NCBI RefSeq assembly: GCF_900104055.1
Contig: NZ_FNJQ01000034.1
Coordinates: 1 to 33,244 of the forward strand
DNA from: Pseudoselenomonas ruminantium
GTDB taxonomy: Bacteria > Bacillota > Negativicutes > Selenomonadales > Selenomonadaceae
Length of the DNA stretch: 33,244 bases
Direction: 5' to 3'
Every line of letters starts with the position of its first letter. The stretch's first letter is position 1. Below are positions 265 through 14,995 of this stretch, in pieces. Under the pieces are notes generated by a model. That model saw only the letters and a program-made list of their open reading frames with translations, was not told the origin of the DNA and searched no databases. The position numbers and the translations under genes are program-made.

Positions 265-269
265 AAAAA

Positions 270-317: not shown

Positions 318-318
318 C

Positions 319-338: not shown

Positions 339-345
339 CACCATC

Positions 346-375
346 TTGCCCGGCGGCCTTTTCTTATGCTATACT
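346..375 (+). promoter_or_regulatory. Promoter of the small hydrophobic peptide gene at 484
   Basis: TTGCCC (346-351), an 18-bp spacer and TATACT (370-375) with an extended TG at 367-368. It begins just outside the insertion sequence end, about 110 bp before the peptide start. This leaves a long structured 5' leader. Confidence 0.5.
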
Positions 376-446
376 GACGTTTAACGCACACAAAGGGAAG
401 CGGTTAGCCCTCTCCGGAGGGACTGTGACTCTCCGATGACATAGAA

Positions 447-478
447 ATCCCTTTAGGAAAATATGCATGGGAAGGGAT
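447..478 (+). promoter_or_regulatory. Hairpin that buries the ribosome binding site of the 484 peptide
   Basis: ATCCCTT (447-453) pairs perfectly with AAGGGAT (472-478), which is the ribosome binding site for the ATG at 484. A second hairpin, CCCTC/GAGGG, lies further upstream at 408-421. Sequestered ribosome sites are typical of type I toxin mRNAs. The structure was read by eye and not folded by program. Confidence 0.5.
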
Positions 479-483
479 GTCTT

Positions 484-579
484 ATGGCATTAGAGTCTGC
501 CATGGCCTTACTGGCTTTTGGCCTCGCCTGTTTTAGCATCGGCTATACAATCGGCAAAGACTTGAATACACGAAAATAA
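484..579 (+). CDS. Small hydrophobic peptide, holin-like/type I toxin-like, 31 aa
   Basis: This ORF encodes 31 residues: a short start (MALESAM), one hydrophobic segment of about 17 residues (ALLAFGLACFSIGYTIG) and a charged tail (KDLNTRK). This layout matches the short peptides usually annotated as putative holin-like toxins, which resemble membrane-acting type I toxins. It has its own extended -10 promoter, a long leader, and a ribosome binding site held in a hairpin. A 7-bp inverted repeat overlapping the stop codon (577-583 with 602-608) could mark the 3' end. A second peptide gene with the same plan lies at 22118. There are no phage genes nearby, so a lysis role is unlikely. No antisense RNA could be assigned with confidence. 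Confidence 0.55.
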   Translation: MALESAMALLAFGLACFSIGYTIGKDLNTRK

Positions 580-654
580 CCGCCCCGGTCTGGAAAACTG
601 AGCGGTTAAGTTCGAAACATCATTAATCGGGCTGACTGTTCCGCCGCCTACAAT

Positions 655-1527
655 TCACTCTATCCCGTAATAATGCAATAATGCCTGCGTCCCTTTATCT
701 CCCTCTTGCAGCCGTTCCATCTGCCGCACTTCACTGAGTACCTGTGCCAGAACTGGCAGGGCCGCACCATAGGCCGCTGAAGTCTCCGTGCCGATGGCCA
801 GATCCTTGCCGAAATGTTTCAGCATGAAGCCCGGCGCAAAGTCACCGGACAGCCCGCGGCGCACAACGTTGTTCATTTGGAAGCTGCTAGCGGCTCCCGT
901 CGAAATGGCCTGATAGGTCTTTTCCACATCCAGCCCCGAAGCCTTAGCATAGGCATAAGCCTCGCAGGCGCCGGCCAAAGCACCGGCAATGGCAATCTGA
1001 TTGCAGGCCTTGGCCTTCTGCCCGGCTCCGGCACTGCCCATATGCACGATGTTCTTCCCCATCGCCGTAAATACCGGCTGCAAAGCCGCAAAAGCATCTG
1101 CCTCGCCGCCCACGAGAATGGAAAGCGTGGCATTCTTCGCGCCCACATCCCCGCCGGTCACCGGCGCATCTACCGCATGAATGCCCTTGTCCCTGGCTGC
1201 CGCAAAGATCTTCTCCGCCAGGATTGGCGATGAAGTGGTCATATCCACCACATAGGCGCCTGCCGGGGCATTGGCCAGAATCCCATCGGCTCCCAGATAG
1301 ACATCCTCCACGTCTTTGGGATAGCCCACGATAGTGATCACAACATCCTGCCCCTTGGCACAAGCTCCGGGGCTGTCACACCAGATGGCCCCTTTGGCCA
1401 GCAGTCCCTCCGCCTTGGCCTGCGTGCGATTGTAAACACTCAGCTTGAAGCCTGCATCCATGAGATGCCCGGCCATAGCCGCCCCCATGATGCCCGTACC
1501 GATAAAACCGATATTCTTGATTTCCAT
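655..1527 (-). CDS. NAD(P)-dependent beta-hydroxyacid dehydrogenase (2-hydroxy-3-oxopropionate reductase / 3-hydroxyisobutyrate dehydrogenase family)
   Basis: A 290-residue protein of the GarR/GlxR/HIBADH family, which oxidises or reduces short beta-hydroxyacids such as tartronate semialdehyde or 3-hydroxyisobutyrate. The N-terminal Rossmann motif GFIGTGIMG is at about residues 7-15, the substrate-binding DAPVTGG block at about 120-126, and the catalytic Lys in GQKAKACNQ at about 173. Length is normal for the family. An upstream in-frame ATG at 1533 is only 3 nt from the AGGAGG at 1537-1542, whereas the ATG at 1527 is 9 nt away, so 1527 is the better start. It follows the heme operon terminator and so is probably transcribed separately. 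The substrate cannot be told from sequence alone. Confidence 0.85.
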   Translation of the reverse strand: MEIKNIGFIGTGIMGAAMAGHLMDAGFKLSVYNRTQAKAEGLLAKGAIWCDSPGACAKGQDVVITIVGYPKDVEDVYLGADGILANAPAGAYVVDMTTSSPILAEKIFAAARDKGIHAVDAPVTGGDVGAKNATLSILVGGEADAFAALQPVFTAMGKNIVHMGSAGAGQKAKACNQIAIAGALAGACEAYAYAKASGLDVEKTYQAISTGAASSFQMNNVVRRGLSGDFAPGFMLKHFGKDLAIGTETSAAYGAALPVLAQVLSEVRQMERLQEGDKGTQALLHYYGIE

Positions 1528-1580
1528 GCCCATCGTCCTCCTGCTAATACTATATCGTTGAATACTTCGCCGCGCATAGC

Positions 1581-1606
1581 AAAAAACCTGCCTGAAACGG
1601 CAGGTT
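1581..1606 (-). terminator. Terminator of the iron/heme operon
   Basis: On the minus strand an 8-bp stem, AACCTGCC/GGCAGGTT with a 6-nt loop, is followed by six T residues. It lies 17 bp beyond the stop of the binding-protein gene, the last gene of the 13-gene unit. Confidence 0.85.
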
Positions 1607-1623
1607 CATGTCATAGCGGGTAT

Positions 1624-2568
1624 TCACTGATATAAGTCAGCGGCCAGCACACGCAGCGCTTCGGCTGCTCTTATGCCAGGATTGACGGCGAAAAGGTCAT
1701 AAGGCAGTATATAGACCTTGCCCTGCTGAACGGCCTTCACGTTCTGCCAGGCCTCACTGCTGGCCAGTTCCTGCCGCATCTTTGTTTCGAGATCTTCCGT
1801 CTTGCCGTGCATGATGATGAAGATGACTTCGGGATTTTCCCGGGCCACAAATTCCATGCTGATAGGCAGATAACCGCCCTCCCCTTCGGCCTTGTCGGCG
1901 ATATTGCCTCCGCCCAGCTCATTCAGCAGACTGCCCGTGAAGCATTTGCCCGTTCCCATATTGAAACTATCAGGCGAACCAAAGACAATGAGGCTCTTGG
2001 GCGGTGTTTTTCCCGCCCCCTGCTGCTTGACTTCGTCCATATCCGCGAGCATTTTGACAGCAGCTGCCTGCGCTTTTTCTGCGTGACCTGTAAGCTTACC
2101 ATAGAATTGCAGCGCTGCAGTCAGCTCTTCCATACTGTCAAGGGATTGAATATAGAGCGGGATTCCCGCCTGGGACAACGTATCCGCCAGATTGGTATGG
2201 AAGGGCACATTCGTACCGATGACCAGATCCGGTTCGAGGCTCAGGATCTTCTCCACATCCGGGGAATGAATGATGCCAACCTCTTCGGCCTTTTCCACAG
2301 CCTTCATAACCTCCGGTGACAGAGCCTTGGACGTCGCCTTGCCCACGATATCCGCTTCGCCGCCTGCGGCCACATAAAGGTCAATATTGGAAGCATTTAG
2401 GATGACCACCCGCTGAGGATGGGCAGGCAAGGTCACTTCCCGGCCCGTACTGTCCGTTACAATACGGACTGAATCCGCTCTGCCGGCGGTCCCTGCCTGC
2501 GGCAGCAGGAAAAAGGCTGCTGCCCCGAGCAGGCACAAAAGGGCAAAGATTGCTGTCAATTTGCGCAT
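1624..2568 (-). CDS. Periplasmic iron-complex/heme binding protein (BtuF/FepB/HmuT-like)
   Basis: A 314-residue ABC transporter substrate-binding protein of the helical-backbone class that carries heme, siderophores or cobalamin. An N-terminal signal (Lys-rich start, hydrophobic residues about 5-23, then AGTAGRA) predicts export to the periplasm. There is no convincing lipobox. The core opens with the typical RIVTDSTGREVTLPAHPQRVV block (about residues 35-55), continues with the SLEPDLVIGT strand, and ends with the VQQGKVYILPYDLF and RAAEALRVLA segments. The strong AAAGGAG site fits the ATG at 2568. It starts 12 bp after the receptor gene and is last in the operon. It probably feeds the FecCD permease at 6918. 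Heme as ligand is inferred from the neighbours. Confidence 0.85.
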   Translation of the reverse strand: MRKLTAIFALLCLLGAAAFFLLPQAGTAGRADSVRIVTDSTGREVTLPAHPQRVVILNASNIDLYVAAGGEADIVGKATSKALSPEVMKAVEKAEEVGIIHSPDVEKILSLEPDLVIGTNVPFHTNLADTLSQAGIPLYIQSLDSMEELTAALQFYGKLTGHAEKAQAAAVKMLADMDEVKQQGAGKTPPKSLIVFGSPDSFNMGTGKCFTGSLLNELGGGNIADKAEGEGGYLPISMEFVARENPEVIFIIMHGKTEDLETKMRQELASSEAWQNVKAVQQGKVYILPYDLFAVNPGIRAAEALRVLAADLYQ

Positions 2569-2580
2569 AAAATCACTCCT

Positions 2581-4542
2581 TTAGAAGCTGACCTTCACAC
2601 CGCCGCGCCAGATGCGGCCATCGTAATAGAGCACATCGTTCTTGCGGTTGGTGAGGTTGTTGATACCGAAATAGGCACTGACCGTCTTGTTGAATTTCTT
2701 GTTCACTACCAGATTCATGATGCTCTCACCTGTATCTTTGGCGGCACTGCTTTCTGTGTAGTGGTAACCCGTCAGCCAATCATTCCAAAGGGTGGCATCC
2801 CATCCATGAGCAGTATCCGCATAGATGAGCTGCAGGGATGTCTTATGACGGGCACGGCCAGTCAGGAACTGATTGGTATTATCGTCCCGGGCATCCAGAT
2901 AGGTGTAGGTTCCCCGCAGGGTAAACATCCTGCCCAGTTTCTGCTTGGCCTCAAGTTCCAGCCCCTGCACCGTCGCCTTGTCCACATTCTCATAGCGGCC
3001 ATTAGCCGTGATGCGCATACCAGTGCCCGGAATATAGGCCCGGGTTATGGTGGTATTGAGATTGATCAGATTATCCACCTTGTTATGGAAATAGGTGATT
3101 TTCCCTGAGGTATGCTTGCGTTCCGCCTCCAGACCAAGGTCAAAGTTCAGGGATTTTTCCGGTTTCAGATCCGGATTGCCCTGAATATTGACCACCATAA
3201 CGGACGTAGGCGTATGCTGCCAGTTGAAATACAGTTCCGAAGCCGTCGGCGCACGATAAGCCGAACCCACATTCGCCTTGAAGCGCATATGCTTGCTGAG
3301 CTTGTAGGTAGAACCGAGCTTGCCTGTCACTTCATCACCGAAGTCATTGTTATGGTCCCAGCGCACCGAGGGAATCAGCAGCCATTTGTCTGTGGCCATG
3401 AATTCATCCTGCAGATACACAGCCCCATAGTGCTGCGAGACTTTGGAGATATTGTTGGCAATCCCCTCCCGCGTGATCGTGCGCATAGAACCGCCATTGA
3501 TACGGGTGCTTTCGTAATCTTCCTGACGATATTCGCCGCCCACGGTCAGGATATGCTGCTCGCCCAGATTCAGGGTGCGCTTGCCATCCACCACATAGGA
3601 GTCAAAGGTCATGTCGTCAAAGCTGTTCAAGGCATGCGTCGTGCGATTGCGGGTACGCTGGTCTTTGTCAAAATGCGTATAGTAAAACTGCATTTCATAG
3701 CTGCCCTGCTTATCCTTGCCGGAGTATTTCAGCCCCGTGGAGGTGCGGCGATGGTCATAATCCGTACCGGCCGTTGCCGAATCGATCATATAAAGGTCTT
3801 CATACATATGGTCCACAAAGAAATCCAGCTTTTTATTCTTAGCTAGATCCATGCGGCCGTCCAAGCCAATGAAGTATTTATCGCCATGCTGATTCGACGA
3901 AGCCCCGCTCATCCGCTTGCGGATATCACTATACTTGCCGTTCAATGCCCAAGCCCATTTGCCATTTTTCCCTAAATCATAGCGAAAACCCAGGTCTTTC
4001 TGCCGGGAAGTCCAATCCCCGCTGACAGAACCGCCCTGCGTGCCCGGCTTTTTTGTGATGATGTTGATGACGCCGCCCAGAGCTTCGGAACCATAAAGGG
4101 AACTTACCGCCCCGCGTACGATTTCCACCCGTTCCACGTTATCCATATTGACACGCTGGAGCTCGTAGTAGTTCTGCGTCTCACTGGTATTTTCCGTGCG
4201 CACCCGGCGCCCATCGATGAGAATGAGGGTTTGATTGGTGTTCATGCCACGGATGGAAGACTGATTCCCCACCATGCCATTTTCCAGCACATTGATGCCC
4301 GCAGCCAGCTGCAAAGCCTGCGCCAGGTTCTCGGCCCCCATTTTTTCGATATCCTCCCTGGTGATGACTTCTACGGCAGCAGGCGTTTCCTTTACTTCCT
4401 GCTCCGTACGGGAGGCCGTCACCACCACGTCCCTGGTCTGAATGCTGTCTGTGTCTGCGGCATCCGCGTGACCAACAGAAATCGTACCGATTACGGCAGC
4501 AGCTAACAATGTGTGTTTTTTCTTGGCAAGTTTTCTGATCAT
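2581..4542 (-). CDS. TonB-dependent outer-membrane receptor with heme-receptor motifs (HmuR/HutA-like)
   Basis: A 653-residue outer-membrane receptor. It has a signal peptide (cleavage likely after about residue 28), a TonB box DVVVTASR (38-45), a plug domain to about 165 (SSIRGMNTNQTLILIDGRR, RGAVSSLYGSEALGGVINI), and a beta barrel ending in Phe. YRAPTASELY (429-438) and GNPDL (455-459) match the FRAP/NPDL pair of heme receptors, with a His at 443 between them where those receptors carry their barrel heme-ligand His. This points to heme or hemoprotein as substrate, although FRAP-like motifs also occur in some other receptors. It is cotranscribed with the binding protein and the transport genes. 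Confidence 0.87.
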   Translation of the reverse strand: MIRKLAKKKHTLLAAAVIGTISVGHADAADTDSIQTRDVVVTASRTEQEVKETPAAVEVITREDIEKMGAENLAQALQLAAGINVLENGMVGNQSSIRGMNTNQTLILIDGRRVRTENTSETQNYYELQRVNMDNVERVEIVRGAVSSLYGSEALGGVINIITKKPGTQGGSVSGDWTSRQKDLGFRYDLGKNGKWAWALNGKYSDIRKRMSGASSNQHGDKYFIGLDGRMDLAKNKKLDFFVDHMYEDLYMIDSATAGTDYDHRRTSTGLKYSGKDKQGSYEMQFYYTHFDKDQRTRNRTTHALNSFDDMTFDSYVVDGKRTLNLGEQHILTVGGEYRQEDYESTRINGGSMRTITREGIANNISKVSQHYGAVYLQDEFMATDKWLLIPSVRWDHNNDFGDEVTGKLGSTYKLSKHMRFKANVGSAYRAPTASELYFNWQHTPTSVMVVNIQGNPDLKPEKSLNFDLGLEAERKHTSGKITYFHNKVDNLINLNTTITRAYIPGTGMRITANGRYENVDKATVQGLELEAKQKLGRMFTLRGTYTYLDARDDNTNQFLTGRARHKTSLQLIYADTAHGWDATLWNDWLTGYHYTESSAAKDTGESIMNLVVNKKFNKTVSAYFGINNLTNRKNDVLYYDGRIWRGGVKVSF

Positions 4543-4612
4543 GCAAATCCTCTTTCTCTAAAAATATCAATTAAACGACTATTGCAAGGAACTGATGCAC
4601 AGTCCCGTATTG

Positions 4613-5356
4613 CTAAAATTCACTATAGTTATGCACGCGGTAGACGCCATAGCCGTAGACCACAGCCGTCAGCAAAAGCAGAGCTAAAGCCTCTGCCCCT
4701 GTACCATCACCGAAACTTCCTGCCTGCAGCAGATGATTAGTCAGGGATAGCGGCAGGAACTGCACCACCTGCCGCACGATGTCCGGCAGATTGGCGATGG
4801 GGAAAAATGAACCGCAAAAGAAGGTCATCGGGGTGATGAAAAAATTGATGATGATGGAAAATTGCTCCTGCCCCTTGATGGACAGTCCCACCGCCACCCC
4901 GAAAGCCGCAAAGGCAAAGGCAGTAAGCAAAAGCCCCACCAGGCCCGGAAGCGACAACAGCTCCAGCCCGAAGAACAGCTTCGCTGCTATAAAGATCACC
5001 GCCGCAGCAGCCAGCGCCCGCACCGTACCCGCCAGCGCAATGCCGAAGACAATGGCACTGTCGCTGATGGGACTCAGGCGCAGGGTGGAAAAATTGCGGT
5101 AATAGAATCGGGAAGCGCTGACGGACAGTGCTGTCTGCTGGAAACCATTCATCATGACCGTGATGGCCAGCATCCCCTTGGCCAGATAAGCGAAGTAGCC
5201 ACCGGCCACCGCCACCCTGTCCCCGAGCCCCCAGCCAAAAGCCAGCAGATAGATCATGGGAAATAGCAGCCCTGAGAAAAGATAGCCCAGGCCGCCAATA
5301 CGTCGCACGAGCATCTTCATCTCCCGATAGAACACCGCCGAAAATCCCTTGAACAT
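4613..5356 (-). CDS. ABC-2-type exporter permease
   Basis: A 247-residue integral membrane protein with about six hydrophobic segments and the ABC-2 layout seen in NodJ and drug or polysaccharide exporters: an amphipathic start (VFYREMKMLVRR), and a conserved late loop (FFITPMTFFCGSFFPIANLP) before the last helices. Its start overlaps the stop of its ATPase by one base (TGATG), so the two are translationally coupled. Such pairs move hydrophobic compounds out of the cytoplasm. Its place inside a heme uptake and degradation operon is unusual: possible cargoes are excess heme, a tetrapyrrole breakdown product or a metallophore. The cargo is inference only. Confidence 0.8.
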   Translation of the reverse strand: MFKGFSAVFYREMKMLVRRIGGLGYLFSGLLFPMIYLLAFGWGLGDRVAVAGGYFAYLAKGMLAITVMMNGFQQTALSVSASRFYYRNFSTLRLSPISDSAIVFGIALAGTVRALAAAAVIFIAAKLFFGLELLSLPGLVGLLLTAFAFAAFGVAVGLSIKGQEQFSIIINFFITPMTFFCGSFFPIANLPDIVRQVVQFLPLSLTNHLLQAGSFGDGTGAEALALLLLTAVVYGYGVYRVHNYSEF

Positions 5357-6108
5357 CAGCCCACCTCCTGTACCAGCCGGCCATCTCCGCCATGGGACAG
5401 TTCCACGAAGGCCTCGTCCAGACTGAGCTCCCGCAAAGGAGACAGGTACTGGCGGAGTCCTGCGGTCGTCCCCGTATATACCAGCTGGCCACTTCGCAGA
5501 AAGGCAATGCTGTCACAGAGTGTTTCCGCTTCTTCCATATAATGGGTGGTCAGCAGCACGGTTTTGCCGGCAGACCGGAGCTGTTTCAGCAGCTGCCAGA
5601 TTTCTTGCCGCATATCCGGATCCAGCCCCACACTTGGTTCATCCAGAAGCAGGATTTCCGGTTCCGGCAGCATGGCCCGGGCAATCATCGCCCGCCGTTT
5701 CATGCCCCCGGAAAGCTTATCGGGGTATTTCTGGCGCCAGCCGCCAATCCGAAAGTGCTGGCAGATTTTCTCCACCTGCTGCCGTGGTTTAGGCAGGCCA
5801 TAGAGCCTGGCATAGCAGACCATGCTCTGCTCGATGGTCAGTTCACTTTCAAAATTGTTCTCCTGCGGCACCAGACCAATCAGGCGGCGGAAAGCCACGC
5901 TGCGCAGGGCAGCCTCCTCCCCCTTGACCAATATCCTGCCGCTGTCAGGCCGGGCCAGCCCGGAAATCAGACGGATCAAGGTGGTCTTCCCTGCTCCGTT
6001 TGGCCCCAACATTCCCATAACCGTCCCCTTGGGAATCTTCAGCGACACATTACGCAGGATGCTGCGATTTTTGCGAGAACAATTTACATTCTCAATGATA
6101 ATTGACAT
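5356..6108 (-). CDS. ABC-2-type exporter ATP-binding protein
   Basis: A 250-residue ATPase with Walker A GPNGAGKT (35-42), signature LSGGMKRR, Walker B ILLLDEPSVGLD and the switch His in LLTTHYMEEAE. The MKRR signature and GLDP D-loop place it with DrrA/CcmA/NodI-type exporter ATPases and not with importers. Its ATG directly follows the TGA of the importer ATPase, and its GGAGGG site lies inside that gene, so it is firmly in the operon. The partner is the permease at 4613. Two different ABC systems in one transcript, one inward and one outward, is the noteworthy point. Confidence 0.85.
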   Translation of the reverse strand: MSIIIENVNCSRKNRSILRNVSLKIPKGTVMGMLGPNGAGKTTLIRLISGLARPDSGRILVKGEEAALRSVAFRRLIGLVPQENNFESELTIEQSMVCYARLYGLPKPRQQVEKICQHFRIGGWRQKYPDKLSGGMKRRAMIARAMLPEPEILLLDEPSVGLDPDMRQEIWQLLKQLRSAGKTVLLTTHYMEEAETLCDSIAFLRSGQLVYTGTTAGLRQYLSPLRELSLDEAFVELSHGGDGRLVQEVG

Positions 6109-6915
6109 TCAACCCTCCATGCAGACGGCAGCGGGGAAAAATATATGTTCCAGCCTTCCCCGGACTTCCACCGTCCTGATCTCATTTTCGACACCATACA
6201 GATTGCGCAGCAGACTGCTGTTGAACACCTCTGCCACAGGACCATCAGCGATGATCTTCCCCGCCTGCAGGGCAACCAGCCGCTGACTGTAGCGGGCGGC
6301 CTGATTGAGGTCATGGAGCACCATCAGCACCGTAAGTCCCAGTTCCTGATGCAGCTTCGCCACGATATCCATCAAGGTCAGCTGATGGCGGATATCCAGA
6401 TAGGTCGTCGGCTCATCGAGCAGCAGGATCTCCGGTTGCTGGGCTAAGGCCAAAGCCAACCTCACCCGCTGCCGCTCCCCACCGGACAGAGCGCCCAAAG
6501 GGCGCTGGGCAAACTGCCTGAGCCCCGTCAGCGCCAGAACTTCTGCGCAGATTTTCTCATCTTCCCGCTGAAAGGAACTCCAAAAGCTGCGATGAGGCAG
6601 TCGCCCCATGCGCACCACTTCCGCTACAGTCAGATCCAGCGGCAGCATGGCACTCTGGGGCATAAAGGCAATCTTGCGGGCCACCTGCTTTTCCGGCAGC
6701 TGCCACAGCTCCTGTCCCAAGAACTCCAGCCTGCCTGCCGCAGGCTTCAGCAACCGGGCCAACGCTTTGAGCAGCGTGGATTTGCCGGAACCATTCGGGC
6801 CGATGATGGCCGTGATTTCTGCTCGACGGATGGCCAGGTCTAATCCCTCAGCCACCACCTTATGCCCGTATTCCAGCCGCAGTCCCTGCGCCTGCAGGAT
6901 GATTTCCTGTTGCAT
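6109..6915 (-). CDS. Heme/iron-complex importer ATP-binding protein (FhuC/HmuV-like)
   Basis: A 268-residue ATPase of the FecE/FhuC/HmuV group: Walker A GPNGSGKST (39-47), Q-loop in FMPQSAMLP, signature LSGGERQR, Walker B ILLLDEPTTYLD and HDLNQAARYSQR. It energises the FecCD permease encoded just upstream. A TTG in frame at 6921 is only 2 nt from the AAGGGG site, while the ATG at 6915 is 8 nt away, so 6915 is preferred. That start lies two bases after the permease stop, which indicates translational coupling. The ligand is inferred to be heme from the operon. Confidence 0.88.
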   Translation of the reverse strand: MQQEIILQAQGLRLEYGHKVVAEGLDLAIRRAEITAIIGPNGSGKSTLLKALARLLKPAAGRLEFLGQELWQLPEKQVARKIAFMPQSAMLPLDLTVAEVVRMGRLPHRSFWSSFQREDEKICAEVLALTGLRQFAQRPLGALSGGERQRVRLALALAQQPEILLLDEPTTYLDIRHQLTLMDIVAKLHQELGLTVLMVLHDLNQAARYSQRLVALQAGKIIADGPVAEVFNSSLLRNLYGVENEIRTVEVRGRLEHIFFPAAVCMEG

Positions 6916-6917
6916 CG

Positions 6918-7949
6918 TCAATGCCCCCTTTTCAGGCCCTGCTTCAACAGATACAGGAAGAAGGGCGCACCGATAAACGACATGAATACCCCCACAGGGA
7001 TCTCAATGGGAGCAAAGACCACCCGGGCCGCCACATCAGCCCCGGCCACCAATGCTGCTCCCCACAGGGCAGAAGCCGGCAGGAGATAGTCAAAGTCCGA
7101 GCCTGTGACCAGCCGCACCATATGGGGAATGACCAGTCCCACAAAACCCAGCATCCCCGCCGCGCTGACCGCCGAAGCGGCTAAAAGCGCGGCGAGCAGC
7201 AAGAGGTACAGGCGAACCCGTTCCACCCTCACGCCCAGGCTTCTGGCTGTATCCTCCCCCATCTGCAACGCATTTAGCCAGCGGCTGCCCAGAAAGGTTC
7301 CCGCCAGTCCCAAGAGGGTGTAGGGAAGGACCATCTGCACATGGCTCCAGCTGCGGCCGGCAAAGCCACCGGCCATCCAGTTCACCGTGCCCTGCACACG
7401 GTCTGAGTAAAAGACCATCAGTGCCGTCATGGCACCACCAAAAAATGCCGCCACTGCCACCCCGGCCAGAACCATGCGCAGCGGCTGGACACCGTTCTCC
7501 CAGGACAGGGAAAAGACCAAGGCCACTGATAAGAGCGCCCCGCCAAAGGCTACGAGCGGAACCAGCGAGGTGCTCTCGGGGAAGATGATCAGCACCACCA
7601 TCGCCGCCAGCCCTGCCCCTGCGGAAACTCCGATGATCCCAGGGTCCGCCAGAGGATTGCGCAGGATGCCCTGCAGTATGCAACCAGCCAACGCAAGATT
7701 GACACCGGTCAGTGCCCCCGTGATCAGGCGGGGCAGACGGATATGGTAAAGAATATTGAAATGTTCGTCCGCCGCCCCGCCCAGCAGGATCTGCCAAACT
7801 TCTCCCGGCGTGAACACCGCTGCCCCCTGACAGATGCTGACCAGAATGGCCAGGACCAGTACCACAGCTCCCAGTCCCAAAGCCCAAAGCCGCTTGCCTC
7901 TTCGCGGGTGCGCTGTCCTGCTTCCATACTCGCAAACAGCCGCGTCCAT
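6918..7949 (-). CDS. FecCD-family importer permease (heme/iron complex)
   Basis: A 343-residue membrane protein of the FecCD/BtuC/HmuU family with about ten hydrophobic helices. Family blocks are seen in order: IRLPRLITGALTGVNLALAG, GILRNPLADPGIIGVSAGAG, the GGFAGRSW segment, and GMLGFVGLVIPHMVRL, which precedes the ATPase-contacting loop, then IPVGVFMSFIGAPFFLYLL at the end. The ATG at 7949 overlaps the flavodoxin stop by one base (TGATG) and has a GGGGG site 7 nt before it. An upstream in-frame TTG at 7967 lies inside the flavodoxin gene and is less likely. It forms the importer with the ATPase at 6109 and the binding protein at 1624. Confidence 0.87.
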   Translation of the reverse strand: MDAAVCEYGSRTAHPRRGKRLWALGLGAVVLVLAILVSICQGAAVFTPGEVWQILLGGAADEHFNILYHIRLPRLITGALTGVNLALAGCILQGILRNPLADPGIIGVSAGAGLAAMVVLIIFPESTSLVPLVAFGGALLSVALVFSLSWENGVQPLRMVLAGVAVAAFFGGAMTALMVFYSDRVQGTVNWMAGGFAGRSWSHVQMVLPYTLLGLAGTFLGSRWLNALQMGEDTARSLGVRVERVRLYLLLLAALLAASAVSAAGMLGFVGLVIPHMVRLVTGSDFDYLLPASALWGAALVAGADVAARVVFAPIEIPVGVFMSFIGAPFFLYLLKQGLKRGH

Positions 7950-8455
7950 CACTGAGCCCCCAGACAAAGCTGGCTGAAATAAGCGCGTGCCGCCGCCAGG
8001 TCCTTTTCGTCCGGATGACTGGCGGCACGCTCAATGCGGGCCAGGCGTTCCGGCGTCATGGCATGGGGATGCCCGGCAGGGAACATCTGCTTCATCATTG
8101 CCACCATTTCATCCGCCACCTTGCCCTGACAGATGAATCTGCCGACGACCTCACAGCCCTCGCCTAAAAGCGCCGCGCCGTTTTCAAGGCATTTTGCAGC
8201 ATGTTCTGAATCCGCTTCGGCTCCCAGTGTGGCAAAGATTGCCACCTTCTGATTAACCAAGCCTCCCAGATAGGCTTTCATCCTGGCATCAGCCGTGCCC
8301 CGGTCCACCCAGAAGCCCGCGATGACCAGATCAAAACCGGCAGCATCAGGATTTTCCTCCACGGGAACCGGGCAGATATGCAGCGCTTCCCCGATGGCAT
8401 TGGCAACCTTCCGCGTGTTGCCGGTCTTACTGGAATAGACTAACAGTATTTTCAT
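7949..8455 (-). CDS. Flavodoxin-family protein, likely redox partner of anaerobic heme degradation
   Basis: A 168-residue flavodoxin-like protein. The FMN phosphate loop SSKTGNTRKVA is at 8-18, the second strand is FDLVIAGFWVDRGTAD, and the third is KVAIFATLGAEADSEHA. The C-terminal 40 residues form a helical extension. It lies in the same transcript as the HutW/ChuW-type radical SAM enzyme, which needs an electron donor. Fusobacterium has the same pairing (HmuF with HmuW), and related flavodoxins (BilS) accompany bilirubin reductase. I infer it supplies electrons to heme ring opening or reduces the product. The sequence alone does not decide between these. It ends coupled to the permease start. 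Confidence 0.78.
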   Translation of the reverse strand: MKILLVYSSKTGNTRKVANAIGEALHICPVPVEENPDAAGFDLVIAGFWVDRGTADARMKAYLGGLVNQKVAIFATLGAEADSEHAAKCLENGAALLGEGCEVVGRFICQGKVADEMVAMMKQMFPAGHPHAMTPERLARIERAASHPDEKDLAAARAYFSQLCLGAQ

Positions 8456-8464
8456 ATTTTCCTC

Positions 8465-9265
8465 CTATTGCAGATCAAAATGTATGGGCACAGTCAAGGT
8501 TATGCTGCGCGCGGCACCATGGGTGAACGGGCAGGAATTTCTGACAGCCTGCATAGCCGCTTTATCCAAAAGACTGCTGCCTGACGAACCGCTGACATAA
8601 ACGCTTGCCAGACTTCCAGCCTCCGACAGGGTAACGGTTACACTGGCCACACCGGTCTCCCCGCGCTTGATGGCCATATAGGGATATTCCTTATTCGCCT
8701 CCACCCGGGCAGCAAAACGGCCGGCAATACTGCCCATGCTTTCCGTCGGAGCAGGTGCCGGCGCTGCTGCGTTGCCTGCAGAATCTATCCCGCCCGTACC
8801 GGCTGCGGATGTACCGCCTGAACCTGCAGCATCCGCCGCTGTCCCGCTGCCCGCTGCCGTTCCTGTGCCGTCGCTTTCCCCGAAGCTGCCTTCTGCGGCA
8901 GTTCCCGGTATTGCCGCCGGACTTTCCGCTATGGCTGTTTCCAGCCCCTCGTCCGCGGTTATGGCCCGCTGATGCATCATGGGCGCCGCCATAGGATTTT
9001 TGATAGCCGGCATGGCAGCAGGACTGCCGCCTGCCTCACCGCCCCCCGTCACCTGACTGACAGAGATCATCTCCACCGCAATCTCCGGCGTTGTCCTGAC
9101 CGGTTCATCCGCGGTGTAGAATGTCCCCAACAATAGGCAGACGGTGCCAATGCCCACAACATGGCAGATACTGGAGAGTGGCAGCGGTCTTAGGCAAAGC
9201 TTCCAACTCAGCCTATGCCCCCTCTTCTGATGAAGATCTTTCTTCACGGACAACGTATAATCCAT
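8465..9265 (-). CDS. tonB: Energy transducer TonB (first paralogue, between hutW and the flavodoxin gene)
   Basis: A 266-residue TonB-like protein. It has a cytoplasmic start of about 33 residues, one membrane helix (about 34-52, SICHVVGIGTVCLLLGTF) and a long low-complexity periplasmic span rich in Gly, Ala, Ser and Thr in place of the usual Pro-Lys repeats. A compact C-terminal domain follows from about residue 190 (YPYMAIKRGETGVASVTVTL ... VPIHFDLQ). TonB couples the ExbB/ExbD proton motor to the outer-membrane receptors. AAGGAGAGG lies just before the ATG, and a Fur-like box sits 22 bp upstream, so it may have its own iron-controlled promoter. The second TonB at 10945 shares the plan but not the sequence of the linker. 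Confidence 0.85.
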   Translation of the reverse strand: MDYTLSVKKDLHQKRGHRLSWKLCLRPLPLSSICHVVGIGTVCLLLGTFYTADEPVRTTPEIAVEMISVSQVTGGGEAGGSPAAMPAIKNPMAAPMMHQRAITADEGLETAIAESPAAIPGTAAEGSFGESDGTGTAAGSGTAADAAGSGGTSAAGTGGIDSAGNAAAPAPAPTESMGSIAGRFAARVEANKEYPYMAIKRGETGVASVTVTLSEAGSLASVYVSGSSGSSLLDKAAMQAVRNSCPFTHGAARSITLTVPIHFDLQ

Positions 9266-9286
9266 AGCCCTCTCCTTATTTAATAT

Positions 9287-9301
9287 AAATAATCATTATC
9301 A
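9287..9301 (-). promoter_or_regulatory. Internal Fur-like box upstream of tonB
   Basis: On the minus strand the site reads TGATAATGATTATTT, 13 of 15 positions of the 7-1-7 Fur consensus TGATAATNATTATCA. It lies in the 46-bp gap between hutW and tonB, 22 bp before the tonB start, over a weak TTTACT/TTAAAT promoter-like pair. Confidence 0.55.
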
Positions 9302-9311
9302 GTAAAAACGA

Positions 9312-10904
9312 TCAGTTTCCTGTTCTCTGCAGCATTTTTTCCCGCATGGCGGGGGGCATGCCTGCGAGCATGCTCTGCAAAGTCTCCTTGCTTGAATGCC
9401 GGAGCATCATGCGTACCGCTGCCGGAATCTTACTGACCATTTGCCGGCGTTTTTCCGCCGTACTATCCGGCAGCATCTCCGCCAGGACCTCATCCAGTGC
9501 CTCCCCGGCCTTGCCATTGATCTCTTCGGCAGGCGCTTCAGCCTGTTCCTCCCATAGCACCTGCACACATTCCACGAGACTCTGCGTCAGACTGATATAC
9601 CAGAACTCGCCGGCTTTAGTCAGACGGTAAACACCCAGGTCCTCCTGCAAAAGCCCCCGCTCCTGCCAAAGAGTCAGCACTGTTTCCAGGTCTTCCAGGC
9701 GATTATCTGCAATCAGCAGGCGGCGGAAATCCACAAAACCCTTTTCCAGATCACGGATAATATCATCACAGATCCGGCCCAGCTTTGCCTCCACCTGATG
9801 GCCAGCCATCATGATGGGCTTTTTGCCTTCTGTCCGGTCGGCCTGATAAGCTGGCAGCGCCCGCTGATTCATGAAACTGATGCCGCCAAAGTGTCCGCCA
9901 GCCCCGCAGCCAAAGGCATAGACATCGGCGCCGGCCTTGGCCAGGGTATTATAGAGGCTACGCTCCCGTTTCGTACGCCGCCAGTGACAGAGGCTCAGCC
10001 TTTCCACTCCTTCAGCCAACAGATAGTCCCGGGCGGCGATATACATATCCGCCTGCCCCGCAATATCCGTGCAAGGCGGCACCACACCATTCTCTACGGC
10101 CTTGGCCAAAGGCCCGCCGGGAAAGATATTGAGCTGATAGAGGTCCATGCCATCCACATCTGCCTCAGCCAAAGTCTTCACATCCTCCAGCCACATAGCC
10201 AAAGTCTGCCCCGGCAGGCCATAGATCAGATCCACGATTACCGTCACATCATAGCTTTTCAAAAGCCGCAGCCGCCGCAATACCTCTTCCCGGGTATCAA
10301 TGCGGCCAATACGCTGGCGCAGAGCGGTATCAAAGGACTGTACACCCAAAGAAATACGGTTGACACCATATTGCAGCCAGGTCTCGATCTTTTCGGGCAC
10401 CAAATCATGGATGCGCCCTTCTAAGGTCACTTCGCAGAACTGTGTCAGACAAAACGATTGCTGCAAGGTTTGCAGCAAAGCTGCTACATTGGCCGGCGAC
10501 AGGGATGTCGGCGTACCGCCGCCAATGAAAACAGCGTCAATGGGGGTTCCCTGTAACTGCGTTGTCTGCGCCTCAGCCCTGATTTCCGCCAGCAGATGCT
10601 GGATATAAACATCTTCCACCTCCTGCCTGCTGGCATTCTGGTAAAATCCGCAGTAGAGGCATTTGGTCTGACAGAAGGGAATATGGATGTAGAGCGCATG
10701 CTGACGGCTCATATCAGCCTGCTTTCCCAAAGCCGCCTGATAAGCATCCTGCTGGCGTCCCTGCTCGAGGGGCGCGCCGATCAGCCCCGCATGGACCACC
10801 CGCTTGCTGGCAAAAGCCTGATGCAGCGGATCTGCAGTTTCCCTGCCCAATAATACTGCCCGCTTCTCTGGCGTCAGTTCCGCCAGATATGTTCCTAACT
10901 TCAT
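9312..10904 (-). CDS. hutW: HutW/ChuW-family radical SAM enzyme (anaerobic heme degradation, anaerobilin synthase-like)
   Basis: A 530-residue HemN-related radical SAM protein. The iron-sulfur motif CQTKCLYC (Cys 78, 82, 85) is followed by FIGGGTPTSL (about 127-136), RISLGVQSFD, VDLIYGLPGQ and the MDLYQLNIFPGGPLAKAV block, all as in HutW/ChuW and not in the coproporphyrinogen oxidase. ChuW opens the heme ring by radical methyl transfer without oxygen, freeing iron. The ATG at 10904 has AGGAG 10 nt upstream. An ATG at 10928 lacks a good site. About 85 C-terminal residues extend past the usual length (ChuW is about 445), with an acidic linker and a helical end from about 477. Context with TonB, receptors and flavodoxin supports the role strongly. 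Confidence 0.85.
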   Translation of the reverse strand: MKLGTYLAELTPEKRAVLLGRETADPLHQAFASKRVVHAGLIGAPLEQGRQQDAYQAALGKQADMSRQHALYIHIPFCQTKCLYCGFYQNASRQEVEDVYIQHLLAEIRAEAQTTQLQGTPIDAVFIGGGTPTSLSPANVAALLQTLQQSFCLTQFCEVTLEGRIHDLVPEKIETWLQYGVNRISLGVQSFDTALRQRIGRIDTREEVLRRLRLLKSYDVTVIVDLIYGLPGQTLAMWLEDVKTLAEADVDGMDLYQLNIFPGGPLAKAVENGVVPPCTDIAGQADMYIAARDYLLAEGVERLSLCHWRRTKRERSLYNTLAKAGADVYAFGCGAGGHFGGISFMNQRALPAYQADRTEGKKPIMMAGHQVEAKLGRICDDIIRDLEKGFVDFRRLLIADNRLEDLETVLTLWQERGLLQEDLGVYRLTKAGEFWYISLTQSLVECVQVLWEEQAEAPAEEINGKAGEALDEVLAEMLPDSTAEKRRQMVSKIPAAVRMMLRHSSKETLQSMLAGMPPAMREKMLQRTGN

Positions 10905-10944
10905 AACTTTCGTTCTCCTGTTGATCATTTCTATCCATGATTAT

Positions 10945-11757
10945 TTACGGCTGAAAAATCACGTGTTTCTCAAAGGGCACACGAATATTGACGCCCTGAT
11001 AATAAATCGGGGCAAAACGCATACTCCAAAGTGCCTCCTGCGCCGCTTCACGGAAGCCAAGCTTCGGCGGGCTGTTCAAAATGGTCACGCTTTCCACGCT
11101 GCCATCCAGCCCCACCATAATCCTGGCCACCACTTCCACCACATTGCTATAACCAATACTGCGGGCTTCCTCGGGATAAACCGCATTGGCATCCCGCAGT
11201 AATTGATAGTCTATCCCTGCAGCACTGGCGGCAGTATAGGTGCCATCACCATTAGGTGTAAAACCTGCGCCCAGTCCCTGGGATGTCCCCGTACCGCTGC
11301 CGCCGGTTCCCTCAGCACTGCCACTGCCGTTATCTCCGTCCGTACTGCCGCCATTCGCGCCAACACCAGCAGAGCCTTTGCCGTCCACTTCTGCCCCTGT
11401 TGAAGCTGCATCTATTGCCGCGGTGGCTTCTTCAACAGCGTTTTCTCTGTCAGCAGCTGAAACGGCAGGATTGCTGGCGGCTTCAGCTGAATGTCCCCGC
11501 AGGCTTTGCAGTTTTTCCACCGCTGCCACGGAGGCCGTTTTTATCGCCGGCCCCATTTTAGGGGCTTCGCCGCCAGCTTCCGAGCCGCCTGCCATACTGG
11601 CCACTGCAGTTTCCGCTACAAAGCCCACCTCAATAGCAGGCTTCTCCTCCGGCTCGCCTGACAGCCAGCCCAGCCCTGCAAATGCCAGAAGGGCAATGAG
11701 CAGGCCATGAACACCTGCCGCCAACCCCAGATAATAATTCCAACTTCGCTTTCTCAT
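10945..11757 (-). CDS. tonB: Energy transducer TonB (second paralogue, next to exbD)
   Basis: A 270-residue TonB. A short basic cytoplasmic start is followed by one membrane helix (about 10-30, LGLAAGVHGLLIALLAFAGL) and a periplasmic spacer rich in Gly, Ala, Ser and Asp. The classic C-terminal fold runs from about 190 (YPEEARSIGYSNVVEVVARI ... LGFREAAQEALWSMRFAPIY). It starts 12 bp after exbD, so ExbB, ExbD and this TonB form the standard three-part motor. The Pro-Lys linker of E. coli TonB is replaced by a Gly/Ser-rich linker here. Confidence 0.88.
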   Translation of the reverse strand: MRKRSWNYYLGLAAGVHGLLIALLAFAGLGWLSGEPEEKPAIEVGFVAETAVASMAGGSEAGGEAPKMGPAIKTASVAAVEKLQSLRGHSAEAASNPAVSAADRENAVEEATAAIDAASTGAEVDGKGSAGVGANGGSTDGDNGSGSAEGTGGSGTGTSQGLGAGFTPNGDGTYTAASAAGIDYQLLRDANAVYPEEARSIGYSNVVEVVARIMVGLDGSVESVTILNSPPKLGFREAAQEALWSMRFAPIYYQGVNIRVPFEKHVIFQP

Positions 11758-11769
11758 CCCATCATCCCA

Positions 11770-12174
11770 TCATCCTTTGGTATCTGTCGCAATATACACC
11801 TTGCTGATACCGAGATTCTTGATCATATCCATGACCTGTACTACTTTGCCATAATCAGCGGCCGCATCTCCGCGCAGGATAACGGACAAATCTCCCTGCT
11901 GCTTTTTTTCCCAGAGACGGCTCTCCAGATCAGCAAGTTTCATCTTTTCCTGTTCATAGTAAACGGCCCCGTCAGCAGTGACGGTGATGGGAATATTCTC
12001 CACCATGCTGACTTTAGCTGTAGTGGCCTGCGGCAACGTCAGCGGCACACTCTTCTGCACCACCATGGTCAGCATGCTCATCATAAAGAACACCAACAGG
12101 AAAAAGATGATATCAATCATCGGAATGATCATCAGGCGTGGTTTTTCCTCATTAGTAGTCAGATCAATGCGCAT
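11770..12174 (-). CDS. exbD: Biopolymer transport protein ExbD
   Basis: A 134-residue protein with one N-terminal membrane helix and a periplasmic domain. The segment MIPMIDIIFFLLVFFMMSML carries the conserved proton-path Asp (IDIIF) of the ExbD/TolR family. The periplasmic part ends with DYGKVVQVMDMIKNLGISKVYIATD, a typical ExbD tail. The ATG at 12174 has GGAGGG 8 nt upstream and overlaps the exbB stop by 11 bp. An in-frame ATG at 12198 deeper in exbB lacks such a site. It works with ExbB as the proton motor driving TonB. Confidence 0.92.
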   Translation of the reverse strand: MRIDLTTNEEKPRLMIIPMIDIIFFLLVFFMMSMLTMVVQKSVPLTLPQATTAKVSMVENIPITVTADGAVYYEQEKMKLADLESRLWEKKQQGDLSVILRGDAAADYGKVVQVMDMIKNLGISKVYIATDTKG

Positions 12175-12769
12175 CGTCACTACCCTCCGCCGCTGCATAC
12201 ATCATGGACACATATTCCACATCAGCAATGATGTTATTGGCCTTGTGCGAAAGGCAGGCATAGAGACACAGCGCCAGTATCGCGACCAAAAGCCCCGTAG
12301 CCGTAGCAATCAGCGCCTCACCCACACCACCGGTGATGGCAAAAGGTTCCCCATCGGCCACATTCAACACGGAAAAGGACTGGATCATGCCCGTAACTGT
12401 GCCCAGCAGCCCCAGCAGCGGTGCCATAGTCACAATCACGCTCAGGTATTCCAAATACTGCCTGAGGTCCAGCGCCTTGCGCTTGGCCGCCGCACATACC
12501 ACTTCTTCCCGGCTGCCAAATTTTTCTTCTTCCATGGCGGTAAGGATAACTTCTCCGGGCGCCCCCGCCATCCTGCAGAGATTTTCGGCCTGCTCCCTGT
12601 TGCCGGACTGCAAAAGTTCATGGATCTGACCGGAAAAATCCTCCACCTGCAAACGTTCCTTACGATAGTAAGCGAAACGCTCAAACGCAATAGTCACCGC
12701 AATGATAGACGCCAGCATGATGGGATACATGACCAGACCGCCCTTTTGAAACAATGCAAAAAACTCCAT
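12164..12769 (-). CDS. exbB: MotA/TolQ/ExbB proton channel family protein ExbB
   Basis: A 201-residue membrane protein. An N-terminal helix (MYPIMLASIIAVTIAFERF) leads to a cytoplasmic region, then the two conserved helices. The block YLSVIVTMAPLLGLLGTVTGMIQSF and the following GEALIATATGLLVAILALCLY match ExbB/TolQ closely. It has GGAG 8 nt before the ATG and lies 20 bp after the first receptor gene. Together with ExbD and TonB it powers both receptors encoded in this operon. Confidence 0.92.
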   Translation of the reverse strand: MEFFALFQKGGLVMYPIMLASIIAVTIAFERFAYYRKERLQVEDFSGQIHELLQSGNREQAENLCRMAGAPGEVILTAMEEEKFGSREEVVCAAAKRKALDLRQYLEYLSVIVTMAPLLGLLGTVTGMIQSFSVLNVADGEPFAITGGVGEALIATATGLLVAILALCLYACLSHKANNIIADVEYVSMMYAAAEGSDDAH

Positions 12770-12788: not shown

Positions 12789-14882
12789 TTAAAACTTATA
12801 ATTCATGCCCACAAAGTAAGTACGTTCAGATCCGGGTACCAAGGTAGCCGTAGCACCACCAGCCGAATCGTATTCATAGTAGTCCTTGCCAAGAACGTTG
12901 CTCACACCGCCGTACCAGGCCATATCCTTATTCTGCTGAAACTTGAAACTCAAATCCAGGAGTCCATAAGAATGGACGACATTGCCGTCTTCATGACGGT
13001 CACTTTCCTTGATAAAGTTATTGTACTTACCAAAGAATGTATACTTGGCATTGACACTCCACTGCTTGTCAAATTTGTAATCAGCAGAGAGCAATACCTT
13101 ATGCTGAGGCACGGCCTTCAGCCCACTATTGGTAAAGTCAATCTCATTCGCGCCATGAGATGCCATCAGGGAACGGCCCTGAGCAGTATAATCCCTGCGC
13201 CCATGCAGATAAGTGTAACCTTCCTGCAGGTGCAGCTTACCCAATCTCTGGAAAAAACTGGTTTCCACGCCCCGACGCTTGGTATTGTACATGTTATAAG
13301 TCTTGTACTCCCAGCCATATGCTCCCTTGAAATAAGGCCGCTCCAACTCGTTATTGGTTTCTGAAGCGAATAGTGTCAGGCTCACCGTGGAAATGCCCCA
13401 TTTATCCCTCAGACCCATTTCCCAAAGATTATAACGTTCCTCCTGTGCGCTTGTTGCCGCATAGACTTTTTTACTTCTGTCCGAATACACCTCGTCACAG
13501 ATCTGCAAGCCATCCGGACTTGTATAACCACGCTCATAACGCAGGAACACCTTGCCCAGATCACTATAGTTATAACCTACAGAAAGTTCCCCGGCTGTAT
13601 TCCACCGGTTGGATGAATCTACTCCGCCTATGGGACGAGTTGCCGTGCCGCCATCCTTATCAAATTTCCAGATCAGCTTTTCCCGCCGCAGTCCCTGTGT
13701 ATAAGTAAAACGTCCACGTTTCATCTTATTTAGCAGATACAAAGCTTCCGTGGTCTTATCGTAGTTGAAATCCATCAACTTGCCCTTAGCCGTGGTTTTA
13801 TACTTCAAATGGGATTCCTGTTCAAACAGATCCAAGCCGAGCAACAGTGAATCCTGTTTGCCATAGGCCCAGTCCAGACGCATGCGCGAGCCATAAGATT
13901 TCGTCTTCATCTTCCCGTCAAAGAATTTCGTATTGGTATAATAACCATCCGTATAAAAGAAATCCCCGCTGTACTTCAGCTTCCTGCCGAAATTCTGGTT
14001 ATAACTCATATTGTAAGTGTTCAGCAAACGATCACCATTCAGGTAATCACTGGCCTTATCCGGCCGGTAGTTATGACCATATTTATCAATCTTCCAGCGG
14101 CTCACATTCTGCAGGAACTTACTGTCCTCATCCAGATGGCTGTAACGGAAAGCAATACTATGATCCTTATCCGCATCATAGCGGAATCCACCATAGGCAT
14201 AATTGCTCTTGCGGTAGGTGTCAACAAAGAATAGATCACGATCCAGACGGGCAAAACCAGCCTGTACAGCCATCTTGTCTCCTGCCCTGGTGCCAAAATT
14301 CACGCTGGCCCGGTAACCATCGGAATTCCACTCCGTATTGACGCTGCTTTGCGGCTTCTGTAAAGAACGCAGATTCGTCGTGATATTGATAATGCCGCCA
14401 GCGGCACCGCTGCCGTAAATCACCGAACCGCCGCCAGGGATGATTTCAATCTTTTCAATCTGCTCCACAGGCACATAGTCATAGTTATTGGGCAAGGGAT
14501 GATTCACCATGGTCGTAACAGGCGCGCCATCCACCAAAACCTGAATATTGCGGGTTGCCTGATCACTTCCCTGGCCCCTTATATCAACCTGGCCCCAGCC
14601 TGTAGCCCCCACATTGATGCTCGGCTGGTCCTTCAGCACATCTGAAATGCTCTTATAGCCCTTCTCCTCCATATCCTTTTTCGTGATCACGATAATCTGC
14701 TTCGTATCCCGCAGCTTTTCTACCTCCACATAGCCCGGCCGCACATAACTGTCATTCAGGCGAATGGTTTCCTTAACAGTATTTTCTGCCGCTGCAACAG
14801 TCCCCATATCTGCCGCCCAAACATTACTGACTGCCAAAATCCCCAGAGCGATAAGCCCCGCCAACTTCCTGCTTTTCGTCAT
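12789..14882 (-). CDS. TonB-dependent outer-membrane receptor (first gene of the iron/heme operon)
   Basis: A 697-residue receptor with a signal peptide (MTKSRKLAGLIALGILAVSN, Ala-rich cleavage site about 23-24), a plug domain (about 55-180: VDIRGQGSDQATRNIQVLVDGAP, IIPGGGSVIYGSGAAGGIINI) and a barrel ending in YKF. It lacks the YRAP/NPDL pair of the other receptor, and the matching region reads YTSPDGLQICDE. It therefore probably takes a different substrate such as a ferric siderophore or another hemoprotein. A GGAGGATG site precedes the start. It is directly controlled by the consensus promoter and Fur box upstream and is the first gene of the operon. Confidence 0.85.
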   Translation of the reverse strand: MTKSRKLAGLIALGILAVSNVWAADMGTVAAAENTVKETIRLNDSYVRPGYVEVEKLRDTKQIIVITKKDMEEKGYKSISDVLKDQPSINVGATGWGQVDIRGQGSDQATRNIQVLVDGAPVTTMVNHPLPNNYDYVPVEQIEKIEIIPGGGSVIYGSGAAGGIINITTNLRSLQKPQSSVNTEWNSDGYRASVNFGTRAGDKMAVQAGFARLDRDLFFVDTYRKSNYAYGGFRYDADKDHSIAFRYSHLDEDSKFLQNVSRWKIDKYGHNYRPDKASDYLNGDRLLNTYNMSYNQNFGRKLKYSGDFFYTDGYYTNTKFFDGKMKTKSYGSRMRLDWAYGKQDSLLLGLDLFEQESHLKYKTTAKGKLMDFNYDKTTEALYLLNKMKRGRFTYTQGLRREKLIWKFDKDGGTATRPIGGVDSSNRWNTAGELSVGYNYSDLGKVFLRYERGYTSPDGLQICDEVYSDRSKKVYAATSAQEERYNLWEMGLRDKWGISTVSLTLFASETNNELERPYFKGAYGWEYKTYNMYNTKRRGVETSFFQRLGKLHLQEGYTYLHGRRDYTAQGRSLMASHGANEIDFTNSGLKAVPQHKVLLSADYKFDKQWSVNAKYTFFGKYNNFIKESDRHEDGNVVHSYGLLDLSFKFQQNKDMAWYGGVSNVLGKDYYEYDSAGGATATLVPGSERTYFVGMNYKF

Positions 14883-14934
14883 TCTCTAATCATCCTCCAA
14901 AAATGAATTCAATTCATAATTGAATTCTATTCAT

Positions 14935-14955
14935 AATTGATAATCATTATCAATT
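14935..14955 (-). promoter_or_regulatory. Fur box at the start of the iron/heme operon
   Basis: A perfect 21-bp palindrome: arms AATTGATAAT and ATTATCAATT around a central C. The core GATAATCATTATC is the canonical Fur site. It lies a few bases past the -10 element, so bound Fur would block transcription when iron is plentiful. Confidence 0.88.
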
Positions 14956-14966
14956 GCACGTTGACT

Positions 14967-14995
14967 ATATTATCAGCATTGATTATTATTGTCAA
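14967..14995 (-). promoter_or_regulatory. Promoter of the iron/heme operon
   Basis: On the minus strand TTGACA (14995-14990), a 17-bp spacer and TAATAT (14972-14967). It is followed at once by the Fur palindrome and about 80 bp later by the first receptor gene. Confidence 0.75.

Follow-up and report, generated by a model that had tools for sequence, protein, structure and literature searches.

Genes and control-like sites of the operon

On the minus strand of the window (the whole stretch of DNA that was analysed, 33 kb in length), a 13-gene hutW heme operon runs from about 14.9 down to 1.6 kb. A TonB-dependent receptor gene comes first, followed by genes for ExbB, ExbD, TonB, HutW, a second TonB and a BilS/HmuF-like flavodoxin, and then by a block of importer and exporter genes; this 3' half encodes a FecCD permease, a FecE-like ATPase, an ABC ATPase, an ABC-2 permease, another TonB-dependent receptor and a binding protein, and ends at a terminator-like stem. 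The cluster is presumably read as a single transcript, as the term operon implies, and presumably under the control of iron.

14967..14995, minus strand: promoter-like site TTGACA-17-TAATAT (weak alone; 12 such sites in the region against 10.3 in shuffles)
14933..14957, no strand assigned: palindromic Fur-like box, just past the promoter-like site and ahead of the first gene
12789..14882, minus strand: TonB-dependent receptor at the head of the operon (Plug domain, Pfam)
12164..12769, minus strand: ExbB-like protein (named by eye; homologues recur in other hutW loci)
11770..12198, minus strand: ExbD-like protein (named by eye; homologues recur in other hutW loci)
10945..11757, minus strand: TonB-like protein 1 (curated-model match, NCBIfam)
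9312..10928, minus strand: HutW radical SAM anaerobilin synthase homologue (466.5 bits; TIGR04107 cut-off 400)
9282..9306, no strand assigned: Fur-like box upstream of tonB2 (at best 15 of 19 matches)
8465..9265, minus strand: TonB-like protein 2, tonB2 (curated-model match, NCBIfam)
7949..8455, minus strand: BilS/HmuF-like flavodoxin (Flavodoxin_3, 172.3 bits)
6918..7949, minus strand: FecCD-type importer permease (319.6 bits; its ATG at 7949 overlaps the flavodoxin stop, and the ORF list gives 7967)
6109..6921, minus strand: FecE-type importer ATPase (likely start ATG at 6915)
5356..6108, minus strand: exporter ATPase of 250 aa, DrrA/NodI-like (ABC_tran and NCBIfam comparison)
4613..5356, minus strand: ABC-2 (type V) permease of 247 aa (Pfam, predicted fold and tree)
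2581..4542, minus strand: second TonB-dependent receptor (curated-model and Pfam matches)
1624..2568, minus strand: periplasmic binding protein nearest heme IsdE (151.9 bits, short of the cut-off of 298.65)
1584..1607, minus strand: terminator-like stem with T run, past the last gene (the region has 20 such sites, its shuffles 12.0)

HutW passes its cut-off, which places the cluster in the hutW class of anaerobic heme operons. The flavodoxin scored 118.3 bits with the BilS model, below the cut-off of 155, and no other model that it matched names HmuF. The second receptor had been called heme-type in the first-pass annotation; the company of the operon agrees with that label, whereas the B12 and hemin models scored the protein alike (238 and 234, both below their cut-offs), so the name comes from the operon and not from a model.

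Three places in the window hold Fur-like sites that match at 15 or more of 19 positions, against none in 20 single-base shuffles of it. The box at 9282..9306 lies upstream of tonB2 and therefore also upstream of the flavodoxin, importer and exporter genes. As far as such likeness goes, the boxes suggest control by iron starvation. The third site, at 16417-16441, falls between an enolase gene and a GGDEF-type gene (by eye). No riboswitch or other RNA reached its gathering score in window positions 1-17000. At the contig end, positions 4-264 encode what looks by eye like the C-terminal part of an IS3-like transposase.

By eye, the exporter ATPase carries the Walker A (GPNGAGKT), signature (LSGGM) and Walker B (ILLLDEP) motifs and a TTH loop; it matched ABC_tran (PF00005) at 122.8 bits and fell below the cut-off of each of the best 25 NCBIfam models shown. 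The permease matched ABC2_membrane (PF01061) at 66.7 bits (cut-off 26.9) and is accompanied by a separate ABC ATPase, as in ABC-2 transporters. At E 0.001, its Pfam matches were ABC2_membrane and ABC2_membrane_3 only, with no CcmB family among them. The pair falls outside DrrAB and NodIJ as curated: drrA scored 222.7 against a cut-off of 312.45, drrB 71.5 against 223.05, and nodJ 59.2 against 206.65. The earlier description had the exporter genes coupled by overlapping codons between the importer ATPase and the receptor. The ATPase and permease genes do share one base (TGATG at 5356), whereas the importer ATPase stop (6109-6111) directly adjoins the ATG of the exporter ATPase (6108) and shares no base with it, and the second receptor starts 70 bases after the permease.

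A profile search at E 0.01 found no sequence relatives of the permease among solved structures. When its AlphaFold2 model (24-row alignment; pLDDT 86.1, pTM 0.86) was compared with the PDB by Foldseek, the 15 matches with E below 0.001 were all ABCH, KpsM or Wzm (TMq 0.58-0.66), and the next, at E 0.003 to 0.04, were ABCG5/G8, TarG, ABCG25, NosY, ABCG2 and CcmB. ABCH, KpsM, Wzm and like folds are type V permeases and mostly exporters. The predicted fold of the permease is of type V, and because the matching folds are mostly those of exporters, the ATP-driven transport of the pair would be directed outward. Export of heme in the manner of cytochrome-c maturation (CcmAB) was considered and rejected, as no CcmB domain was found at E 0.001 and the likeness is in fold only. 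The only other PF01061 permease of the window genome (G000:C49, about 23600-26900; L193:5635-8904) sits with its own ATPase, and that pair adjoins an ATPase and a Zn/Mn-type importer permease (ZnuB-like, by eye).

Distribution of the exporter pair and its relatives

The hutW survey covered Negativicutes. HutW exceeded its cut-off in 101 of 300 genomes (108 matches), and the permease group, defined with profile A1 at E 1e-55, comprised 36 copies in 32 of the 300. The group scored at least 285 bits and the remaining matches in a 398-genome phylum sample at most 176.5 bits; intermediates of 200-240 bits came from 21 of 198 genomes of another phylum (that of G684), which was reached through a Desulfonema locus (L124). 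Four loci from that phylum were read; in two of them (L323:1-2235 and L324:1498-3732), near-copies of each other, the gene immediately upstream encodes a FecE-like ATPase. The careful tree resolved the permease group as one clade of 35 rows with 100/100 support and with the query permease inside it, and a quick tree of 73 rows gave the clade an SH-aLRT of 100. Before the careful tree, rows L081_1599, L191_2294, L222_7410, L185_15179 and L190_8502 were dropped for their long branches and L070_7271 as a duplicate of L071, and the G684 phylum contributed two additional rows.

Genomes with the permease group contained hutW in 25 of 32 cases, against 76 of 268 without it (Fisher p 6e-8, a value that ignores relatedness and is inflated because the genomes are related); three of the seven genomes with the group and without hutW were less than 80% complete. 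Among the 84 hutW loci that were laid out, 22 of the 36 copies lay beside hutW, on the same strand and within 9 kb, in nine families (f1, f5, f10, f17, f18, f23, f26, f31, f34). The recurrence of the same gene company in so many loci and families is more than chance, which bears out the earlier view that an exporter-type transporter is a real member of the anaerobic heme operon. Insertion by chance into one genome was likewise ruled out by the recurrence. The 24 matches left out of the layout were 23 congeners of laid-out genomes and one at a contig end (G204); as the permease group was absent from all 24 genomes, the rate is 22 of 108. Absence of the pair from related hutW loci had been named at the outset as a refuting observation; it is indeed absent from 86 of the 108 matches, so HutW works without it and it cannot belong to the core of the HutW chemistry. 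The pump is an accessory, optional member of hutW loci.

The commonest arrangement was importer ATPase, exporter pair, HmuF-like flavodoxin and HutW. Counting as neighbour the next gene recognised by the reference set, which is not always the adjacent one, the exporter ATPase was preceded by the importer ATPase in 18 of the 22 loci, by the flavodoxin in three and by none in one; the permease was followed by the flavodoxin in 14, a receptor in seven and the binding protein in one. Named carriers of a hutW-linked pair were Selenomonas ruminantium HD4, S. ruminis, Sporomusa acidovorans, Propionispora sp. 2/2-37, Mitsuokella sp. oral taxon 131 (its hutW seen in the twin locus L072), Anaerospora hongkongensis and an Acidaminococcales bin; the scan of named genomes used two short peptide patterns and is little informative for other phyla. 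A ChaN-like gene accompanied the pair in 11 of the 22 loci (PF04187, 182.8 bits in L073). In one hutW operon, the main pair is joined by another, only distantly similar ABC-2 pair behind the ChaN-like gene (L081:1506-3200; permease 26%, ATPase 36%). In one locus (L286:5862-6520; genome G127), the exporter ATPase survives as a broken remnant and the permease is gone, with the rest of the hutW operon intact.

The company of the 36 copies consisted of tetrapyrrole enzymes in 32 cases and of a FecCD-binding protein-receptor locus in two, and for two the contig was too short for a judgement (L189, L191). Ten copies stand beside CobN, ChlID-type AAA, NifH-like or CbiK genes (L087, L088, L089, L090, L184, L185, L186, L187, L188, L190). 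The two of the receptor type are arranged as FecCD, ATPase, pair, binding protein and receptor, in genomes with hutW elsewhere (G085, G121), and genome G042 has a copy beside CbiK (L087) as well as a hutW locus without the pair (L102). For CobN, CbiK, CbiZ, CbiC, CbiL, ChlID-type and NifH-like proteins, one example each was checked with Pfam and, the ChlID-type excepted, with NCBIfam; the remaining proteins were assigned by BLAST against these examples. The CobN/CbiK-type copies, with L189, form a group of ten rows with 100/100 support nested in the permease clade of the careful tree; several tetrapyrrole loci have thus drawn on a single protein lineage. In Negativicutes, NifH-like and NifDK-like proteins were also seen with CobN (L088:593-11000), ChlID-type (L190) or CbiK (L218) genes, and such loci may encode a tetrapyrrole pathway.

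More distant ABC-2 paralogues proved unusable as a neutral control, since 19 of their 33 loci hold a tetrapyrrole marker themselves; such a marker was present in none of ten random 16-kb regions. Tetrapyrrole company is therefore not peculiar to the hutW-linked clade. Eight of the 33 paralogue loci, which form one clade, lie beside a Zn/Mn-type importer in the manner of L193, and the wider family is accordingly not heme-specific. Paralogue pairs were also observed beside CbiK and tetrapyrrole methylase genes and a FecCD importer (L195:7691-13941, L199:1789-8197, L126:7312-12161, L125:3081-9765), and the CbiK of these loci has an apparent signal peptide (by eye). It is possible that these pairs export sirohydrochlorin for cobalt insertion outside the cytoplasm and subsequent re-import.

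Other kinds of exporter occur in hutW loci as well. An MsbA-like single-chain ABC exporter on the same strand, with 40% or more identity to the L104 protein (L104:11491-13218), was found in 10 of the 84 loci: nine lack the ABC-2 pair (L100, L104, L268, L270, L276, L281, L287, L290, L299), and L085 has both genes (43% identity to the L104 protein). The hutW-locus copies showed 41-51% identity to the L104 protein, over nearly the full length in eight loci; other full-length MsbA-like copies in the 15 genomes searched reached at most 39%, two ATPase-only pieces elsewhere reached 47%, and one full-length copy elsewhere (G039:C22) scored 443 bits, equal to the weakest of the eight. The gene follows the importer ATPase, in the slot of the ABC-2 pair, in L270, L276 and L290. 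Mutual exclusion of pair and MsbA-like gene was ruled out by the one locus in ten that has both (P 0.20), and L112, outside the 84-locus sample, holds the pair and a 33% MsbA-like piece. This co-occurrence counts slightly against the export reading set out below. In two genomes of one genus (L094, L269; G085, G121), hutW is followed directly by genes for a membrane-fusion protein and an RND pump, which share its strand. Three of the random regions contained exporter pieces, MsbA-like in L307 and L311 (L311 matches the MsbA reference at 41% over about 190 residues and, separately, at 32% over a longer stretch) and RND with a fusion protein in L308, and a fourth held a FecCD piece at 34% (L304). 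The RND genes beside two hutW loci are thus not above the level of the ten random regions, and it is identity, strand and position that make the case for the MsbA-like gene. Of the three exporter kinds counted (pair, MsbA-like, RND), 51 of the 84 loci have none, although a MacB-like gene is present in one of the 51 (L291); an exporter is thus common in hutW loci without being required. The expectation of the first-pass annotation that import loci normally carry no outward pump finds no support in that form, given the pair in 22 of 108 hutW matches, the MsbA-like gene and the paralogous ABC-2 pairs in other FecCD importer loci.

Proposed cargo and purpose of the pair

As to the cargo and purpose of the pair, we infer, at a little short of an even chance, that it is one exporter of an anaerobic heme-iron pathway and that it expels a spent tetrapyrrole, most likely anaerobilin or its reduced form. 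Heme would enter through the TonB-dependent receptors, the binding protein and the FecCD importer; HutW would open the ring and free the iron, and the HmuF-like flavodoxin would reduce the linear product. The ABC-2 pair would then spend ATP to drive the spent tetrapyrrole, as anaerobilin or a reduced form, out of the cytoplasm. Three cargoes had been proposed at the outset, a toxic tetrapyrrole product, surplus heme and a secreted heme-binding molecule, which sequence by itself leaves inseparable. The tetrapyrrole product fits the comparative evidence best and surplus heme is possible; the secreted molecule is least supported because no biosynthetic, siderophore or hemophore gene was seen in the operon.

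The pair might instead be a safety valve that expels surplus intact heme or metal-free porphyrin, resembling HrtBA in role without being related to it. Heme is toxic in the membrane, and the CobN/CbiK loci have no HutW nearby, which makes a ring such as porphyrin the more likely shared cargo. Yet a Fur-like box stands upstream of both the pair and the importer, simultaneous import and export of heme would be futile, and known heme efflux pumps are, in the parts of their literature available to us, induced by heme excess; we regard the valve as rather unlikely. It is less probable again that the pair serves metal exchange, sending out a metal-free or partly processed tetrapyrrole while the FecCD importer returns one, so that in the hutW operon the tetrapyrrole would be a carrier and not waste. 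FecCD-type importer genes do recur with ABC-2 pairs in CobN loci (L187, L188), and the paralogous loci join CbiK, CbiL, a binding protein, FecCD, an ATPase and an ABC-2 pair, with the signal peptide of CbiK apparent by eye (the CbiK and CbiL of L195 being the examples checked by Pfam and NCBIfam). However, no extracytoplasmic chelatase was seen in the hutW operon, and the supporting paralogues share only about 31% identity and fall outside the clade.

Finally, an unrelated compound (a drug, lipid, siderophore or hemophore) might be exported by a pair that merely rides along. ABC-2 exporters have very varied cargo, the drug and Nod-factor exporters DrrAB and NodIJ are among the nearest curated names, and some related pairs are accompanied by a Zn/Mn-type importer. 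We nevertheless consider this improbable in view of the tetrapyrrole-enzyme company of 32 of the 36 copies, the FecCD-binding protein-receptor locus of two more, and an operon in which neither a siderophore nor a hemophore gene was seen. Since paralogues keep the same company, the case for a cargo specific to heme is weaker: CobN, CbiK and other metal loci are served by relatives both within the clade and beyond it, and the cargo could be another ring or something else.

A broader reading, which we consider doubtful, would make the ABC-2 pairs a family of outward porphyrinoid pumps partnered with FecCD importers, with a role set by the type of locus. In hutW operons they would clear opened heme; in CobN/NifH-like loci they would clear or circulate metal-free rings; and in the CbiK-CbiL loci of the paralogues they would deliver sirohydrochlorin to CbiK in the periplasm, where it would receive cobalt before the importer returned it. 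Were this so, tetrapyrrole import and export would form one cycle, and the spent ring of anaerobic iron piracy would end in secretion. The recurring exporter clade of hutW loci supplies a named, deletable candidate for the ring's exit step; if spent tetrapyrrole does leave by this route, gut and rumen anaerobes would release tetrapyrroles usable by their neighbours.

Comparison with known systems

The hmu/hutW operons of Fusobacterium nucleatum (hmuTRUVWF), Veillonella, Campylobacter and Treponema share with the present operon HutW/HmuW, an HmuF-like flavodoxin, a TonB system, a FecCD-type importer and a receptor, as far as the sections available of PMC10404700 describe them. In the same sections, HmuF both reduces anaerobilin and passes heme to HmuW; anaerobilin is termed cytotoxic and in need of further reduction (PMC10404700). 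For the F. nucleatum-type operon, the figure legend of that paper names no exporter, and its main text contains no word that starts with 'export' or 'efflux'. Within the partly accessible literature, subscription journals apart, we found no description of an exporter in a hutW operon, and we found none that treats cbiK along with both ABC-2 and cobalamin. For the HmuS de-chelatase route, the available part of PMC12583661 has its authors stating that the fate of protoporphyrin IX remains undiscovered, and a review, in the part available, asks whether Gram-negative bacteria possess heme efflux pumps (PMC11442138). Protoporphyrin is handled by MacAB-TolC of E. coli and by efflux pumps of Streptococcus agalactiae, according to the excerpts available.

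DrrAB and NodIJ likewise combine a separate ATPase with a PF01061 permease and are among the nearest curated models, and their genomic company differs. ABCG2 (6hbu, 7ojh) and CcmABCD (8ce1 chain B) have a fold similar to that predicted for the permease (E 0.02-0.04), and ABCG2 exports porphyrins. HrtB is a MacB/FtsX-like permease, whereas the permease here is, by Pfam, of the ABC-2 type, which sets the pair apart from HrtBA. The HrtBA and PefCD heme and porphyrin efflux ABC pumps nonetheless have in common with it the proposed role of moving toxic tetrapyrroles outward. They answer, in the accounts partly available to us, to heme excess, whereas the pair described here lies with iron-starvation uptake genes.
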